Below, in pieces: positions 16,680 through 51,157 of a stretch of 64,000 nucleotides of DNA. The DNA is from Bremerella sp. P1 (lineage in GTDB: Bacteria > Planctomycetota > Planctomycetia > Pirellulales > Pirellulaceae). Position 1 is the first letter of the stretch; the number at the start of each line of letters is the position of its first letter. Location of the stretch: positions 6,845,814 to 6,909,813 of the forward strand of contig NZ_CP118164.1 of assembly GCF_028748185.1 (NCBI RefSeq), written 5' to 3'. The notes under the pieces were generated by a model. It saw nothing but the letters and a program-made list of their open reading frames with translations, was not told where the DNA came from and made no database searches. Position numbers and translations under genes: made by a program.

Positions 16680-16753
16680 CCCCACGCCACGATAGGCGTG
16701 GGGCGAGCATCTTGTCCCCTCGCCCCTGAGGGGAGAGGGTTAGGGTGAGGGGC
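16680..16753. repeat. GC-rich hairpin plus GTCCCCTCGCC repeat, copy 1
   Basis: A 9-bp hairpin CCCCACGCC / GGCGTGGGG (16680-16703) is followed by a 40-base unit (16714-16753) beginning GTCCCCTCGCCCCTGAGG. The 40-base unit recurs identically at 48068-48107. The strand-independent hairpin has no T-run. This is a dispersed intergenic repeat family of unknown function; it may act as a weak stop after htrA. Confidence 0.6.
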
Positions 16754-45703: not shown

Positions 45704-46255
45704 ATGAGCCGAATTGGTTTAGCTTTCAAGCTCTTTTTCCAAATACTATTTAATTCTGATGTCGCCAAGCGAGCGGAGAAGCTCTCGCTGCCTGCCCCGA
45801 ACGAGCAGGAGAAGAAACCGGAGCCACCTCCTCCGCCGCCACCACCACCGAAGCCTCCCAAGCCGCCACGGCCCGATGGCATCGACGCGTTGGTGCTGCT
45901 GGCAACCTTGCAGCGCGAGGCCCGCTTTCTGGATCTCTTCCAGGAAGACCTGAGCGAGTACGACGACGCCCAGATCGGTGCCGCCGTTCGCGACGTGCAG
46001 CGCGACACCAAGGCCACTCTCAACCGCTTGTTCGCCATCAGCCCAGTGCGTGGTGAAGAAGAAGGGGGCCGTATCGATCTGCCTGAGTCGTTCGACGCCA
46101 GCGAGATTCGCCTGGTCGGCAACGTGCAAAACGAAAAGCCTTCAGCCGGGACGCTCGTGCATCGCGGCTGGAAGGCCACCAAGTGCGACGTGCCTAAGTT
46201 CAACGGCACGCTCGAGCAGGCCCAAGTGCTCAATCCGGCAGAAGTGGAGGTCTAA
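45704..46255 (+). CDS. DUF2760-family protein
   Basis: A 183-residue protein. The N-terminus (about 1-20, GLAFKLFFQILF) is amphipathic or hydrophobic and may attach to a membrane. A Pro-rich linker (about residues 36-55, with nine consecutive Pro) precedes the DUF2760 domain (about 57-183), with LATLQREARFLDLFQEDLSEYDDAQIGAAVRDVQR and a C-terminal VHRGWKATKCDVP. DUF2760 has no assigned function and is usually found next to Hsp70-like genes; here the Hsp70 gene starts 3 nt after the stop. That spacing argues for co-translation and a joint complex. Confidence 0.8.
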   Translation: MSRIGLAFKLFFQILFNSDVAKRAEKLSLPAPNEQEKKPEPPPPPPPPPKPPKPPRPDGIDALVLLATLQREARFLDLFQEDLSEYDDAQIGAAVRDVQRDTKATLNRLFAISPVRGEEEGGRIDLPESFDASEIRLVGNVQNEKPSAGTLVHRGWKATKCDVPKFNGTLEQAQVLNPAEVEV

Positions 46256-46258
46256 ACC

Positions 46259-48046
46259 ATGGCAGCGAAATATGTCATCGGCGTCGACCTCGGTACGACC
46301 AATAGCGTCATCGCCTACAGCGACCTGGAAGCGGAACAGCCCGTCGTCGAGTTGTTAGAGATTCCGCAACTGGTCGCGGCCAGCACGATCGAAAACCGCA
46401 AGTCGCTTCCTTCCTTCTTGTACCTCGCGACCGAGGCCGATCAGGAAGGTGGCAAGCTCGGGCTGCCGTGGGACGAAAGCCAAACGTACGCCACCGGCGA
46501 GTGGGCTCGGCGTCAGTCGGCCGATACGCCAGACCGGACGGTCGGCGGGGCGAAGAGCTGGCTCTCGCATCATAAGGTCGACCGGCAAGGCAATATCCTT
46601 CCTTGGAACGCACCGGAAGAGGTCGGCAAGATCTCGCCGGTCGAAGCTTCCAAGCGATATCTTCAGCACCTGGTCGCTGCCTGGAACGAAGCTCAGCCCG
46701 AGCATGCGTTCGCCGATCAAGCGGTCGTGCTGACGGTACCGGCTTCGTTCGATGCCAGTGCCCGCGAGCTGACGCACGAAGCGGCCATCGCGGCTGGTTT
46801 CCCGGCCGACTTTACCTTGCTGGAAGAACCCCAAGCTGCCGTCTACTCGTGGCTTGGCCACATGGGCGACAAGTGGCGGAAGGCCCTCAAGGTCGGCGAC
46901 AAACTGCTGGTCTGCGACGTGGGTGGTGGTACGACCGACCTGACGCTGATCACCGTCGAAGAAGAAGGGGGCGAACTGGTCCTCAAACGGATGGCCGTCG
47001 GCAATCACCTGTTGGTGGGCGGCGACAACATGGACCTTGCCCTGGCGTTTCATGTGGCCGAACTGTTCAAAGAGAAGAACGTCACGCTCGATCCGTGGCA
47101 GTCGGTCTCGCTGTGGCACAGCTGCCGAGCAGCCAAGGAACAACTGCTGCAAGAGGACGGCCCCGACAAGCATCCAGTCAGCATCCTGGGCCGCGGCAGC
47201 AAGTTGATCGCCAAGACAGTTTCCGTCGACGTCGAGCGCGAGCCGATCAAGCAGATGCTGCTCGAAGGCTTTTTCCCTGCTTGTGCGGCGACCGATAAAC
47301 CAGAGCGAGGCTTCGTTTCCGGTTTTCAGGAACTCGGTTTGCCATTTGAATCGGACCCAGCCGTTACGCGGCACCTGGCCGAGTTTCTGGCGCAACATTC
47401 CGAGAAAGCAGGCAGCGCGATCCATCCGACGCACGTGCTGTTCAACGGTGGCGTGTTCAAGAGCGAACCGTTCCAAACGCGATTGATGGAAACCATCGGT
47501 TCGTGGCAACCGGAACTGCCACCGCAGCGACTGGAAGGGGATCACGACCTCGACTACGCGGTCGCTCGTGGTGCAACCTTCTACGGCTGGCAGAAAGAGA
47601 AGGGGGGCATTCGCATTCGCGGCGGAACGGCCCAGGCCTATTACGTCGGGATTCAGACATCAGGCCTGGCAATCCCCGGTGCCCCACGTCCGCTGCATCT
47701 GCTGAACGTGGTGCCGATCGGCATGGAAGAAGGAACCGAGACCGATGTACCCAGCGCCGAGATCGGCCTGGTAGTCGGCGAGACGACCAAGTTCCGTTTT
47801 TTCTCTTCGCCGATTCGCAAAGACGACAAGCCTGGCCAGATGATCCAGCGGTGGGACGAAGCCGAGATTTCCGAGACCGACAGCTTGGAAGCTTCCTTGC
47901 CGCGCGACGACAAGATCAACGAGCCCTACGTGCCGGTGACCTTCCACAGCAAGGTAACCGAGCTCGGCATGCTCGAGCTGTGGTGCGTCAGCAGCAAAAC
48001 CTCCGGCCGCTGGAAATTAGAGTTCAACGTCCGCGAAGAGGACTAA
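46259..48046 (+). CDS. Hsp70-like ATPase, short form
   Basis: A 595-residue protein. The actin/Hsp70 ATPase signatures are present: GVDLGTTNSV, VTVPASFDASARE, LLEEPQAAVYSW, CDVGGGTTDLTLI, and GGDNMDLAL. The C-terminal part (about 460-595) is a short beta-rich domain ending in GRWKLEFNVREED; there is no DnaK-type helical lid or EEVD tail. A signature AKSWLSHHKVDR (about residue 100) is shared with the larger paralogue downstream. It is likely a specialised chaperone or structural ATPase rather than DnaK. It is directly downstream of DUF2760. No J-domain or GrpE gene is in the window. Confidence 0.85.
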   Translation: MAAKYVIGVDLGTTNSVIAYSDLEAEQPVVELLEIPQLVAASTIENRKSLPSFLYLATEADQEGGKLGLPWDESQTYATGEWARRQSADTPDRTVGGAKSWLSHHKVDRQGNILPWNAPEEVGKISPVEASKRYLQHLVAAWNEAQPEHAFADQAVVLTVPASFDASARELTHEAAIAAGFPADFTLLEEPQAAVYSWLGHMGDKWRKALKVGDKLLVCDVGGGTTDLTLITVEEEGGELVLKRMAVGNHLLVGGDNMDLALAFHVAELFKEKNVTLDPWQSVSLWHSCRAAKEQLLQEDGPDKHPVSILGRGSKLIAKTVSVDVEREPIKQMLLEGFFPACAATDKPERGFVSGFQELGLPFESDPAVTRHLAEFLAQHSEKAGSAIHPTHVLFNGGVFKSEPFQTRLMETIGSWQPELPPQRLEGDHDLDYAVARGATFYGWQKEKGGIRIRGGTAQAYYVGIQTSGLAIPGAPRPLHLLNVVPIGMEEGTETDVPSAEIGLVVGETTKFRFFSSPIRKDDKPGQMIQRWDEAEISETDSLEASLPRDDKINEPYVPVTFHSKVTELGMLELWCVSSKTSGRWKLEFNVREED

Positions 48047-48067
48047 GCCTCGAATCTACCTAATCTC

Positions 48068-48107
48068 GTCCCCTCGCCCCTGAGGGGAGAGGGTTAGGGT
48101 GAGGGGC
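48068..48107. repeat. GTCCCCTCGCC repeat, copy 2
   Basis: A 40-base unit identical to 16714-16753. It begins 21 bases after the stop of the short Hsp70 gene. Perfect identity over 31 kb suggests recent spread or gene conversion. Confidence 0.75.
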
Positions 48108-48128
48108 TACGAAACAAGAGAAGCCTTA

Positions 48129-48292
48129 GCCACCGAGGACACAGAGAGCACCGAGGGAAGAAAAGAAGTTCAACCGCGGATTACGCAGATAAACGCGGAT
48201 AAGTAATAAGGAAGTCGCGTCTTGCGAATCCCATCCGTGCTATCCGCGAAATCCGCGATTAAACCCTCTTCTTTGTGTGCTCTGTGGCTAAT
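48129..48292. repeat. large nested inverted repeat (family with 25150-25354)
   Basis: The arms CCACCGAGGACACAGAGAG (from 48131), CCGCGGATTACGCAGATAA (from 48174), their inverted partner ATCCGCGAAATCCGCG (about 48242-48257), and TGTGCTCTGTGGCTAATC at the right end keep the same nested order as the copy near hslV. The inner arms have diverged from that copy (CGCGGATTACG here, CACGGATTACA there). It ends 18 bases before the start of the long Hsp70 gene and so separates it from the short one. Confidence 0.7.
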
Positions 48293-48310
48293 CAAGAAAC
48301 CACTCCCACC

Positions 48311-51157
48311 ATGTCCATCGTCAAAGCAACCTCCGCTCAGCCACGCCCTGGCGACGAAGAGGAACTCCCCAGCCGCTATCTGGTCGGCATCGATCTCGGC
48401 ACGACCAACTCGGCCGTGACCTTCCTCGATACGCAGACCGAAGGTGCCAGCATCGAGACCTTCGCGGCCCCCCAGGTCATCGCCCCCGGCCAGATCGAAG
48501 CGCGGACGACGCTGCCGTCGTTTCACTATCAATCGGCCCAAGGAGAGTTCGCCCAGGACGCATTGCGTCTGCCGTGGAGCAAGTCGGACGAAACGACCGC
48601 CGTCGGAGCGTTTGCCCGCGACCACGGCACAAGCGTCCCTGGCCGCATGATCAACTCGGCCAAGAGTTGGCTCTCGCACTCTGGCGTCGACCGTACCGCC
48701 GCACTATTACCGTGGCATGGCAGCGCGGATGTCGAAAAGCTTTCGCCGGTCGAAGTCAGCAGCCGCTACCTCCAGCACGTGCGTCGTGCATGGAACGATC
48801 AGTTCAAGTCGGAACCGCTTGAAGAGCAAGACATCGTGCTGACGCTGCCGGCGTCGTTCGATGAAATCGCGCGTGAGCTGACCGTCGAAGCGGCCAAGCA
48901 GGCAGGGCTCGATCGCGTGGTCCTCATCGAAGAACCGCAAGCCGCGTTCTACGACTGGTTGGCCAAGCATGCCGACAGTTGGCAGCAGCACGTTTCGCCA
49001 GGGCAGACGATCCTGGTGTGTGACATTGGTGGTGGTACGAGCGACTTCACGCTCATCCGTGCCCGGGCAGGCGAAGAGAACCTGGTGCAGTTCCATCGCG
49101 TGGCGGTCGGCGAACACCTGATCCTGGGTGGCGACAACCTCGACCTGGCCTTGGCGCATCATCTGGAACAAAAGCTTTCGCCCAAGGATAAGCTACCGGC
49201 CGATCGTTGGTCGATCCTGGTGCGGCGATGTCGTCAGATCAAAGAGACGTTCCTCGGCCCCGATGCCCCGGACTCGCAGACGGTCAGTCTTCCGGCACTG
49301 GGCTCGAAGCTGATTGGCGGTGCTTTGCAGTGCGAAGTGACGCGAGAAGAAGTCCACCAGGTACTGGCCGAAGGCTTCTTGCCTGATTGTGAACTGACCG
49401 ACGAGCCTGACACGCGGACCTCTGGCTTTCAGGAGTTTGGCTTGCCGTACGCCCCCGATGCGGCGATCACGCGGTGGCTGGCCTACTTCCTGCGAACGCA
49501 TCATGAAGTGATCGAAGAAGAGAGCCGCCACGCGAGCGGATCCGTTCGTCCCGATTTGGTTCTATTGAACGGTGGCTTCTTCGAATCGCCGGTGCTGAAA
49601 GAGCGTCTGCTCGACGTCCTGACTCGCTGGTTCACCCAGGACGATGCCAACTGGCAGCCGGTCCTGCTGGAGAATCAGCATCTCGACCTGGCGGTCTCGC
49701 GCGGGGCAACTTACTACGGCCAAGTCCGCCGCGGCACTGGCGTCAAGATCACGGCCAACCTGGCCCGCACGTATTACATTGGGATCGGCAGCGGCGAAGC
49801 GACCGAGGCGTTATGTCTGTTGCCGGCAACGACCGAGCCGGGACAAGAGATCGACCTCGACCTGACGTTCCAGCTGCGTGTGTCGGAGCCGGTCGAGTTT
49901 CCCCTGTTCATTTCCAGCACGCGTCTGATCGACGAGCCAGGGCAACTGGTGCCGATCGATCCGCAGCAGATCAAAGCCTTGCCGCCGATCCGTACGGTGC
50001 TGCGGGCCCGGCGACGCGCCGAAGCGGAAACGATTCCGGTGCATCTGCACGCCAAGCTGACCGAGATCGGCACCATTGAACTGTGGTGCGCTCAGGTCGA
50101 CAGCGACCGGACGTGGCGTCTGCAATTCGACATTCGTAGCGCCACGCAGACCGATGTCGCCGCGCACGAGTCGGCCAAGGAAGCGGAAGGGATGCTCGAT
50201 GAGTCGCTGTGGAACGAAGCGGCTCAGGTCCTGAACGAAACGTTCGGCGAAGACGCATCCCGCAAGCCGCAGCCGCTAATCAAAGATCTGGACGCGGCTT
50301 TGGAGATGCGGCGTGACGAGTGGCCGACTTCGCTGTTGCGGCGGATGTGGGAACACCTGATGGACCTGGAGGCAGGCCGCAGCAAGAGCCCCACGCACGA
50401 GTCGCGCTGGCTGAACCTGACCGGATACTGCCTACGGCCTGGGTATGGCCTGGCACTCGATGACTGGCGGGTTTCCGAGACGTGGAAGCTGCTGCAAGGC
50501 AAGGTGCTGCACAACGACGACAATTGCCGCAATCAATCGCTCATCCTCTGGCGGCGGATCGCCGGGGGACTCAATCGCGGGCAGCAACTAGCCATCGCCG
50601 AACCCCTTCTGGTCGCCACGCGGGCGATGCACAAGCGAATGACCAGCGGTGGCGGAGGAAGCGCCGCCGCGACGTTCACCCCGCAACAAGCGATCGAAGC
50701 ATGGCGTCTCTTGGGAAGCCTGGAACTGCTTGGTGCTCAAGAGAAAACCGAGATCGGTCGCATGCTGGTCGACCTGCTGGGCAAGAAGAAACTGGAACCG
50801 GCCCGCGGTGCGATGGCGTGGACGATTGGCCGCTTGGGAACTCGCACGCCCGTGTATGGCCCGCTCAATACGCTGGTTCCGAAAGAGATCGCGGCGAAGT
50901 GGCTAACAGCGATTATCAAGCAGAAGAGCACCGACCGAGCCGACCTGCTGGCCGTAATGCAACTGGCTCGCCGCACTGACGACCGCTACCGCGACCTGGC
51001 CGAAGATGCCCGCGACCAGGCGGCGACTTGGCTAGAGCAGCAGAAAGCAACCGAGCACTGGGTCCGCATCGTCCGCGACGGTGGTCAGCTGGATGAAGAA
51101 GAACAGTCGCAGATCTTTGGCGAGAGCTTGCCAACCGGCTTGACGCTGGTTCGTTAA
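48311..51157 (+). CDS. Hsp70-like ATPase, long form with DUF3731-type C-terminus
   Basis: A 948-residue protein. The ATG at 48311 is chosen; the frame continues upstream into the repeat. Its ATPase part (about 25-440) has GIDLGTTNSAV, LTLPASFDEIARE, IEEPQAAFYDW, CDIGGGTSDFTLI and GGDNLDLAL. AKSWLSHSGVDR, GFLPDCELTD and SGFQEFGLPY match the short paralogue. A beta-rich region (about 540-620) follows. The last 300 residues are all-helical, rich in Trp/Arg, with a Gly-rich GGGGSAAATF stretch near 785, and correspond to the DUF3731 extension found in such proteins. Together with DUF2760 and the short Hsp70 it forms a three-gene module; its clients are unknown. Confidence 0.85.
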   Translation: MSIVKATSAQPRPGDEEELPSRYLVGIDLGTTNSAVTFLDTQTEGASIETFAAPQVIAPGQIEARTTLPSFHYQSAQGEFAQDALRLPWSKSDETTAVGAFARDHGTSVPGRMINSAKSWLSHSGVDRTAALLPWHGSADVEKLSPVEVSSRYLQHVRRAWNDQFKSEPLEEQDIVLTLPASFDEIARELTVEAAKQAGLDRVVLIEEPQAAFYDWLAKHADSWQQHVSPGQTILVCDIGGGTSDFTLIRARAGEENLVQFHRVAVGEHLILGGDNLDLALAHHLEQKLSPKDKLPADRWSILVRRCRQIKETFLGPDAPDSQTVSLPALGSKLIGGALQCEVTREEVHQVLAEGFLPDCELTDEPDTRTSGFQEFGLPYAPDAAITRWLAYFLRTHHEVIEEESRHASGSVRPDLVLLNGGFFESPVLKERLLDVLTRWFTQDDANWQPVLLENQHLDLAVSRGATYYGQVRRGTGVKITANLARTYYIGIGSGEATEALCLLPATTEPGQEIDLDLTFQLRVSEPVEFPLFISSTRLIDEPGQLVPIDPQQIKALPPIRTVLRARRRAEAETIPVHLHAKLTEIGTIELWCAQVDSDRTWRLQFDIRSATQTDVAAHESAKEAEGMLDESLWNEAAQVLNETFGEDASRKPQPLIKDLDAALEMRRDEWPTSLLRRMWEHLMDLEAGRSKSPTHESRWLNLTGYCLRPGYGLALDDWRVSETWKLLQGKVLHNDDNCRNQSLILWRRIAGGLNRGQQLAIAEPLLVATRAMHKRMTSGGGGSAAATFTPQQAIEAWRLLGSLELLGAQEKTEIGRMLVDLLGKKKLEPARGAMAWTIGRLGTRTPVYGPLNTLVPKEIAAKWLTAIIKQKSTDRADLLAVMQLARRTDDRYRDLAEDARDQAATWLEQQKATEHWVRIVRDGGQLDEEEQSQIFGESLPTGLTLVR

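Follow-up and report, generated by a model that had tools for sequence, protein, structure and literature searches.

A DUF2760 protein and two divergent Hsp70 proteins of Bremerella sp. P1 form a co-retained gene set that may work apart from DnaJ

The gene set described here comprises three open reading frames on the plus strand, at positions 45704-51157 of a stretch of 64,000 nucleotides (the window) from the 6.96-Mb single-contig chromosome of Bremerella sp. P1. They encode a DUF2760 protein of 183 amino acids (45704..46255), a short Hsp70 of 595 amino acids with ATPase and beta domains (46259..48046), and a long Hsp70 in which a helical tail follows these two domains (48275..51157). An earlier note, made from the letters of the window, had reported DUF2760 beside two divergent Hsp70s at this locus; this observation was confirmed, and its interpretation as a dedicated chaperone machine was partly supported. 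That the three genes make up one functional unit can be considered close to shown, in view of their co-retention, the recurrent gene order and the lack of any other widely recurring neighbor. Family assignments were clear, since PF10816 (DUF2760, residues 61-182) scored 148 bits and PF12531 (DUF3731, in the long Hsp70) 265.9 bits against a gathering score of 25, and PF00012 (Hsp70) scored 53.8 bits in the short and 70.6 bits in the long protein against a curated cut-off of 20.6.

Co-occurrence was determined in a phylum sample of 195 planctomycete genomes and in a class sample of 343 genomes; both samples overlap, so that their counts are never summed. The families were not distributed at random, and their co-occurrence in planctomycetes was nearly perfect. 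Thus, DUF2760 was found in 21 of the 195 genomes and DUF3731 in exactly the same 21 (phi = 1.0), and the short-Hsp70 profile, which also matches the long Hsp70, hit these 21 genomes and none else at E 1e-30. Judged by bit score and frame length, 20 of these 21 genomes had a short as well as a long copy; in two of them (G049 and G077) the long one is split or truncated at contig ends. In the class sample, where the count covered DUF2760 and DUF3731, the former appeared in 231 and the latter in 232 genomes (229 with both, 2 with DUF2760 alone, 3 with DUF3731 alone and 109 without either; phi = 0.967), which makes 338 of 343 genomes concordant. The single control family, DUF3500, encoded by an adjoining gene, was present in 65 genomes of the phylum sample, among them 12 of the 21 with the module (phi = 0.175 vs. 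DUF2760). Presence of the module was uneven within genera, DUF2760 and DUF3731 changing jointly in g144, g166, g172, g175, and g5. Three further genomes (loci L047-L049) held all three genes, two of the short matches being reported to contain stop codons; these genomes add little, since at least two of the three were already in the class sample (same places as G464 and G438).

The layout of the genes in the 21 phylum genomes was variable: all three were clustered in 12, DUF2760 and the short Hsp70 were together with the long one elsewhere in 2, short and long were together with DUF2760 elsewhere in 1, and the genes were apart or on separate contigs in 5, the remaining genome being G003 (see below). 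Among 20 single-contig class genomes, chosen by eye among the listed places and including some close kin (G373, G374, and G375), DUF2760 and DUF3731 lay within 10 kb of each other in 7 and more than 10 kb apart in 13, and yet they were kept together. Linkage alone is therefore no explanation of their co-retention, which in scattered genes points to functional dependence. The order DUF2760-short-long was recurrent. In the window the short Hsp70 starts 3 nucleotides past the end of DUF2760, as the earlier note had stated; these two genes overlapped by 4 nucleotides or were spaced within 9 at 10 of 13 loci (41-115 nucleotides at the other 3), and the gap reached about 200-275 nucleotides at L062 and L063, outside that count. 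When neighbors were compared across 38 loci (same-genus L056-L058 excluded), no cluster among the 30 widest listed occurred at more than four loci beyond the module itself and overlapping frames in the Hsp70 genes.

The set was also found outside the planctomycetes. DUF2760 appeared in 11 of 72,556 plasmid records, all from proteobacterial genera; 10 of these 11 plasmids, and no other plasmid record, showed a match covering at least 80% of the long Hsp70. The compact three-gene set was carried by two Bradyrhizobium plasmids (both typed conjugative), one Comamonadaceae plasmid and three Burkholderiaceae plasmids. The statement in the earlier note that the genes are co-conserved in some planctomycetes and proteobacteria was thus supported. 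On one Bradyrhizobium plasmid the module is followed, about 1 kb downstream, by a groES-groEL pair (L053:16213-18257). The phage collection contained no DUF2760 record, and none of 49 DUF2760 pattern hits in IMG/VR virus contigs was confirmed.

The two Hsp70s were compared with DnaK in alignments of 17 short and 19 long sequences, together with one of 23 DUF2760 rows. Near copies were omitted from all three alignments (L053, L056, L078, and L088), from the short and long ones (L057), from that of DUF2760 (L071) or from the long one (L072); long copies that were interrupted, truncated or located on small contigs (L049, L074, L080, L081, and L085) and the full-length L075 (949 amino acids) were also left out, as were the short Hsp70s of five genomes in which the genes are scattered. 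The signatures AKSWLSH and SGFQE-x-GLP, described in the earlier note as shared by and private to this pair, occurred in both proteins, at 46550..46570 and 47318..47344 (SGFQELGLP) in the short Hsp70 and at 48659..48679 and 49421..49447 (SGFQEFGLP) in the long one, all on the plus strand. KSWL was kept in all 36 aligned proteins (17/17 short and 19/19 long); the lysine of the short protein's motif aligned with K70 of DnaK, and SGFQELGLP fell within an insert that DnaK does not have. What we take to be the catalytic positions of DnaK (D8, T11, K70, E171, D194, and T199, DnaK numbering) were conserved in 17/17 short and 19/19 long sequences. At the positions presumably touching the J-domain in DnaK (R167, N170, and T173), N170 was replaced by glutamate in 36/36 and T173 by glutamine in 35/36 proteins, and R167 was lost in 17/17 short and 15/19 long ones; this R-N-T triad is intact in Escherichia coli DnaK, HscA and HscC and in the genome's own DnaK. 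No hydrophobic linker of the VLLLD type was present in any of the 36 aligned module Hsp70s. The helical lid of DnaK (the alpha part of the substrate-binding domain) was absent too, as had been noticed earlier: the short protein ends after the beta domain, and in the long one DUF3731 takes the place of the lid. With six catalytic residues intact, the VLLLD linker lost and the three J-contact residues largely lost, the residues support a putative Hsp70-type machine running off the DnaJ track, so that in this respect, separateness from ordinary DnaJ, the dedicated ATPase machine of the earlier note was upheld. HPD tripeptides found in 6/17 short and 4/19 long Hsp70s were not conserved and were attributed to chance.

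The module Hsp70s are not ordinary duplicates of DnaK or HscA. The best NCBIfam model for both was HscA, with 73.6 bits (short) and 91.2 bits (long) against DnaK/HscA cut-offs of at least 620. A tree of 40 rows placed the short Hsp70s in one clade (99/95) and DnaK, HscA and HscC in another (100/100), the module Hsp70s being separated from the latter by a very long branch (100/100). Planctomycete and proteobacterial copies occurred among the short as well as the long proteins; the split between the two forms would thus have preceded the divergence of these phyla, or else the set would have spread by transfer. A correlation among the tree distances of the three proteins (r 0.86-0.95, over the 14 genomes represented in all three alignments) was given no weight, because common ancestry by itself would produce it.

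The model of the long Hsp70, of modest quality (predicted local distance difference test score, pLDDT, 62.9; predicted template modelling score 0.52; five sequences), contained an ATPase domain, a beta domain (strands 492-618) and helices 643-948. The DUF3731 domain (residues 705-958; 50387..51148, plus strand) was almost all helix in this model, which, together with the PF12531 score, bore out the helical C-terminus of DUF3731 type that had been read from the sequence. Among the 50 PDB rows listed in a fold search, the first 17 were DnaK, the highest template modelling score by target length was 0.69 (DnaK 7krv_A, 538 residues, 17% identity), and the lowest E-value corresponded to the DnaK model 9a5j_A. 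The matched DnaK chains hold both ATPase and beta domains, and according to the model a beta substrate-binding domain is located behind the ATPase domain of the long Hsp70. Matches in a viral structure library were mostly annotated Hsp70 homologues, along with Gp506 of Bacillus phage G.

For DUF2760, no HPD motif of J-domains was present in the 23 aligned rows, window protein included, PF10816 was the sole Pfam match at E 0.001, and a PDB profile search gave no match up to E 1. Five weak matches from a single-sequence PDB search (best E 0.01, in the proline-rich stretch) were taken as chance, and a single-sequence fold model was unusable (pLDDT 41.9). The invariant positions of the family include LxxxQxxxRxxD and HxGW, and 22/23 rows matched a relaxed version of the C-terminus AEVEx. 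An N-terminal hydrophobic helix with the consensus MxRxxxAFxxFFxxLxN (45710..45754, plus strand) reached a peak hydropathy over 15 residues of 1.42 in the window protein, of 0.77-2.35 in 24/26 loci and of about 3.3 in two Bradyrhizobium forms; in L065 and L084 the peak fell outside this helix. A proline-rich linker (45815..45874, plus strand) follows, with 42% proline over the 40 residues preceding the domain; this content ranged from 0 to 42% over 23 rows, so that the linker is not universal, and in one planctomycete family (L076, L078, and L080) a charged, coiled-coil-like stretch replaces it. Of the two features attributed to DUF2760 beforehand, the hydrophobic N-terminus thus stood for most forms, being strong in the two Bradyrhizobium forms only, and the proline-rich linker held for this protein and not as a feature of the family. 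The N-terminal stretch is a candidate membrane anchor; equally, it may serve the Hsp70 beta domain as a tethered pseudo-substrate.

Taken together, these results agree with a joint reading to which we give slightly less than an even chance: one module separate from DnaK-DnaJ-GrpE, with an unequal pair of Hsp70s and DUF2760 in the role of a J-protein. In this arrangement the short, lidless Hsp70 would bind and release clients, or remodel a target, through cycles of ATP, and the long Hsp70, with its helical DUF3731 tail, may assist it as a partner or exchange factor, in the way that Hsp110 serves Hsp70. DUF2760 would stand in for the J-protein, its conserved domain contacting the Hsp70s and its hydrophobic N-terminus anchoring them at the membrane. 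The fully specified form of this cycle, independent of J-proteins, with DUF2760 as a membrane-tethered activator and the DUF3731 Hsp70 supporting the short one as an Hsp110-like partner in bacteria, is possible but doubtful.

Several observations weigh against this joint reading. R167 was retained in 4/19 long Hsp70s and T173 in one protein, so that contact with a J-protein may survive in some, and R151 was kept in 35/36 (17/17 short and 18/19 long). Of the residues assumed to contact adenosine (E267, K270, and S274), E267 was replaced by arginine in 32/36 and S274 corresponded to a gap in 34/36, in a gappy part of the alignment, which suggests that nucleotide handling may differ from that of DnaK; K270 was kept in 36/36. 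The long Hsp70s were not monophyletic, and only 2% of bootstrap trees united them in a single group; the short clade may have originated among them, or the distant outgroup may be misplaced. The N-terminus of DUF2760 remained mostly below typical transmembrane hydropathy, and its amphipathic moment was not significant. A scan for sigma-32 heat-shock promoters and for the controlling inverted repeat of chaperone expression (CIRCE) upstream of DUF2760 at 24 loci gave nothing beyond shuffled sequences, and no heat-shock control is therefore claimed. As for the integrity of the set, no short Hsp70 was found in the phylum genome G003, where two Hsp70 pieces fit as the halves of a long one (326 vs. 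298 bits for the N-terminal piece, favoring long). Five class genomes held one family without the other (DUF2760 only in G334 and G336; DUF3731 only in G268, G423, and G446); all five are fragmented, with about 180 to 1120 contigs per assembly, and four fall in g162, g4, and g14. On the Thiodictyon plasmid pTs485 (L052:1-16100), anti-phage genes and a TIR protein surround DUF2760 and the short Hsp70, and no long Hsp70 was found on the plasmid, to which this search was confined. Finally, one module-type short Hsp70 was located alone on a 157-kb IMG/VR contig (L086:8016-9869), with genes for a transposase and a Holliday junction resolvase nearby and neither DUF2760 nor DUF3731 on the contig; it may be phage-borne or belong to a misfiled bacterial stretch.

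Other explanations account for part of the same evidence. The module may be the same and DUF2760 its dedicated client, which the Hsp70 pair folds or inserts in the membrane as HscA does for IscU. The co-retention of one small protein with two chaperones fits this idea, as do the hydrophobic N-terminus, the proline-rich linker of many forms and the strongly conserved AEVEx C-terminus; two large dedicated ATPases would, however, be costly for a single protein of 183 amino acids, and no enzyme-like family match marks DUF2760 as an end product, so that we consider it unlikely. The idea that these are divergent Hsp70s still served by the housekeeping DnaJ and GrpE, DUF2760 being an accessory, is favored by the intact catalytic residues, by the retention of R151 (17/17 short and 18/19 long) and of R167 (4/19 long), and by the two J-domain genes and one GrpE encoded in the genome. 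The replacement of N170 and T173 almost throughout, the loss of the linker, scores far under the DnaK/HscA cut-offs and the distance from DnaK, HscA and HscC in the tree make it rather improbable. An actin-fold ATPase module that organizes the membrane or envelope instead of folding proteins would be compatible with weak profile matches to MreB and BeeR and with the hydrophobic N-terminus of DUF2760; the MreB matches were nevertheless weaker than those to Hsp70 and in keeping with a common actin-like fold, and the best PDB fold matches were DnaK chains with ATPase and beta domains, which leaves little probability for this function. An anti-phage or mobile stress-tolerance cassette, suggested by the two plasmids typed conjugative and by the adjoining anti-phage genes in Thiodictyon, is very improbable, since PADLOC gave a single weak match (21.9 bits, a family without curated cut-off), which fell in the long Hsp70's ATPase domain, DUF2760 was present in 231/343 class genomes, once per genome and frequently at a distance from DUF3731, and no defense gene was among the recurring neighbors listed.

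Comparison with known systems helps to situate the module, read as an Hsp70 pair tied to DUF2760. Like DnaK, its Hsp70s have the ATPase fold, the catalytic residues and a beta domain following the ATPase domain; unlike DnaK, they have no VLLLD linker, no lid and no adjacent dnaJ or grpE, their J-contact triad is changed, and they bear the SGFQE-GLP insert in the nucleotide-binding domain. HscA is a specialized Hsp70 that has a partner of its own, HscB, and the module shares with HscA and HscC this logic of a dedicated Hsp70 (HscA is also the best NCBIfam model for both proteins), but it scores far under the HscA cut-offs, whereas HscA and HscC keep the R-N-T triad and group with DnaK. In eukaryotes, unequal pairs of Hsp70 relatives are used together, Hsp110/Sse1 with Hsp70 and Ssz1 with Ssb; Sse1, Hsp110 and Ssz1 were among the fold matches listed, and no evidence pointed to a common descent of the pairing. 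E. coli YegD has also lost the J-contact triad (V-Y-V), but it is 450 amino acids long, stops before the beta domain and has leucine at K70.

The names DUF2760 and DUF3731, singly or combined, were not found in a search of 5.39 million open-access papers. In four papers on Vibrio cholerae genes, an operon VC1373-1375, with VC1374 described as DnaK-related, is among the genes repressed in biofilm (PMC9201469), the VC1375 promoter is activated by HapR (PMC10328515), in a ribD mutant VC1373 (DnaK-related) falls together with ibpA, clpB, dnaK, dnaJ, and htpX (PMC5816637), and VC1374, there named dnaK, is among the transcripts differing between the wild type and a vc1639 mutant (PMC5636140). The order in VC1373-VC1375 (an uncharacterized protein and two DnaK-related ones), judged by gene order and names alone, suggests the same module. 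If so, the joint change with heat-shock genes would support a role in proteostasis, yet the heat-shock motif scan was empty. A DnaK-related protein (AUB85620.1), which may be the plasmid copy, is listed among differentially expressed Thiodictyon proteins (PMC6413534). DnaK-related proteins of uncertain placement are also named in PMC3706606 and PMC4943939, the tags searched for occur in PMC4159263 and PMC9608740 as names of strains only, and the terms planctomycetes and DUF are absent from the available text of a paper on bacterial DnaK duplication (PMC11019930).

Regarding the locus itself, the 48047-48305 segment between both Hsp70 genes showed strong folding (z -7.3), and looks like an inserted palindromic repeat; its hairpin (48126..48291), possibly a dispersed repeat and not counted in the module, covers the GTG of the long gene. 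The long Hsp70 probably begins at ATG 48311 (948 amino acids) and not at GTG 48275 (960 amino acids), since this GTG sits in an arm of the long predicted hairpin and since the first start codon of the relatives L056 and L057 (949-amino-acid frames) is at that later methionine. An identical 34-nucleotide palindromic sequence was observed at 16719-16752 and 48073-48106 of the window, with no such pair expected by chance, and is possibly a dispersed repeat. A scan of the module for sigma-70 promoters gave none, with 1.1 expected. The flanking genes encode an AAA/SMUBP-2-type helicase, a major facilitator superfamily transporter, a lysine-decarboxylase-like protein (which we assume to be of LOG type) and a DUF3500 protein; genes of these flanks reappear at L059, from a genome of the same family, and one cluster was common to the window, L068, and L072. 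The only other PF00012 match in the genome is the canonical DnaK at 4.866 Mb, with GrpE (4.847 Mb) and one DnaJ (4.848 Mb) about 17-19 kb away. No J-domain gene or GrpE was found inside the 64-kb window, so that the module is indeed unaccompanied by them there, as stated earlier; the two J-domain genes and the single GrpE of the genome all lie outside. The second J-domain gene (326-amino-acid open frame; 6.8456 Mb, genome positions 6845619-6845807), distinct from the DnaJ near DnaK and GrpE, is located just beyond the left edge of the window, about 46 kb from the module.

Hsp70s are generally held to require J-proteins. A pair of Hsp70s that keeps the residues of catalysis, has lost the J-contacts, occurs in two phyla and is tied by inheritance to one small protein would make it directly testable how an Hsp70 can be driven without them. 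If the J-protein-independent cycle were true, bacteria would possess a second, parallel Hsp70 cycle with co-factors of its own, and the module would assign a function to two DUF families together.

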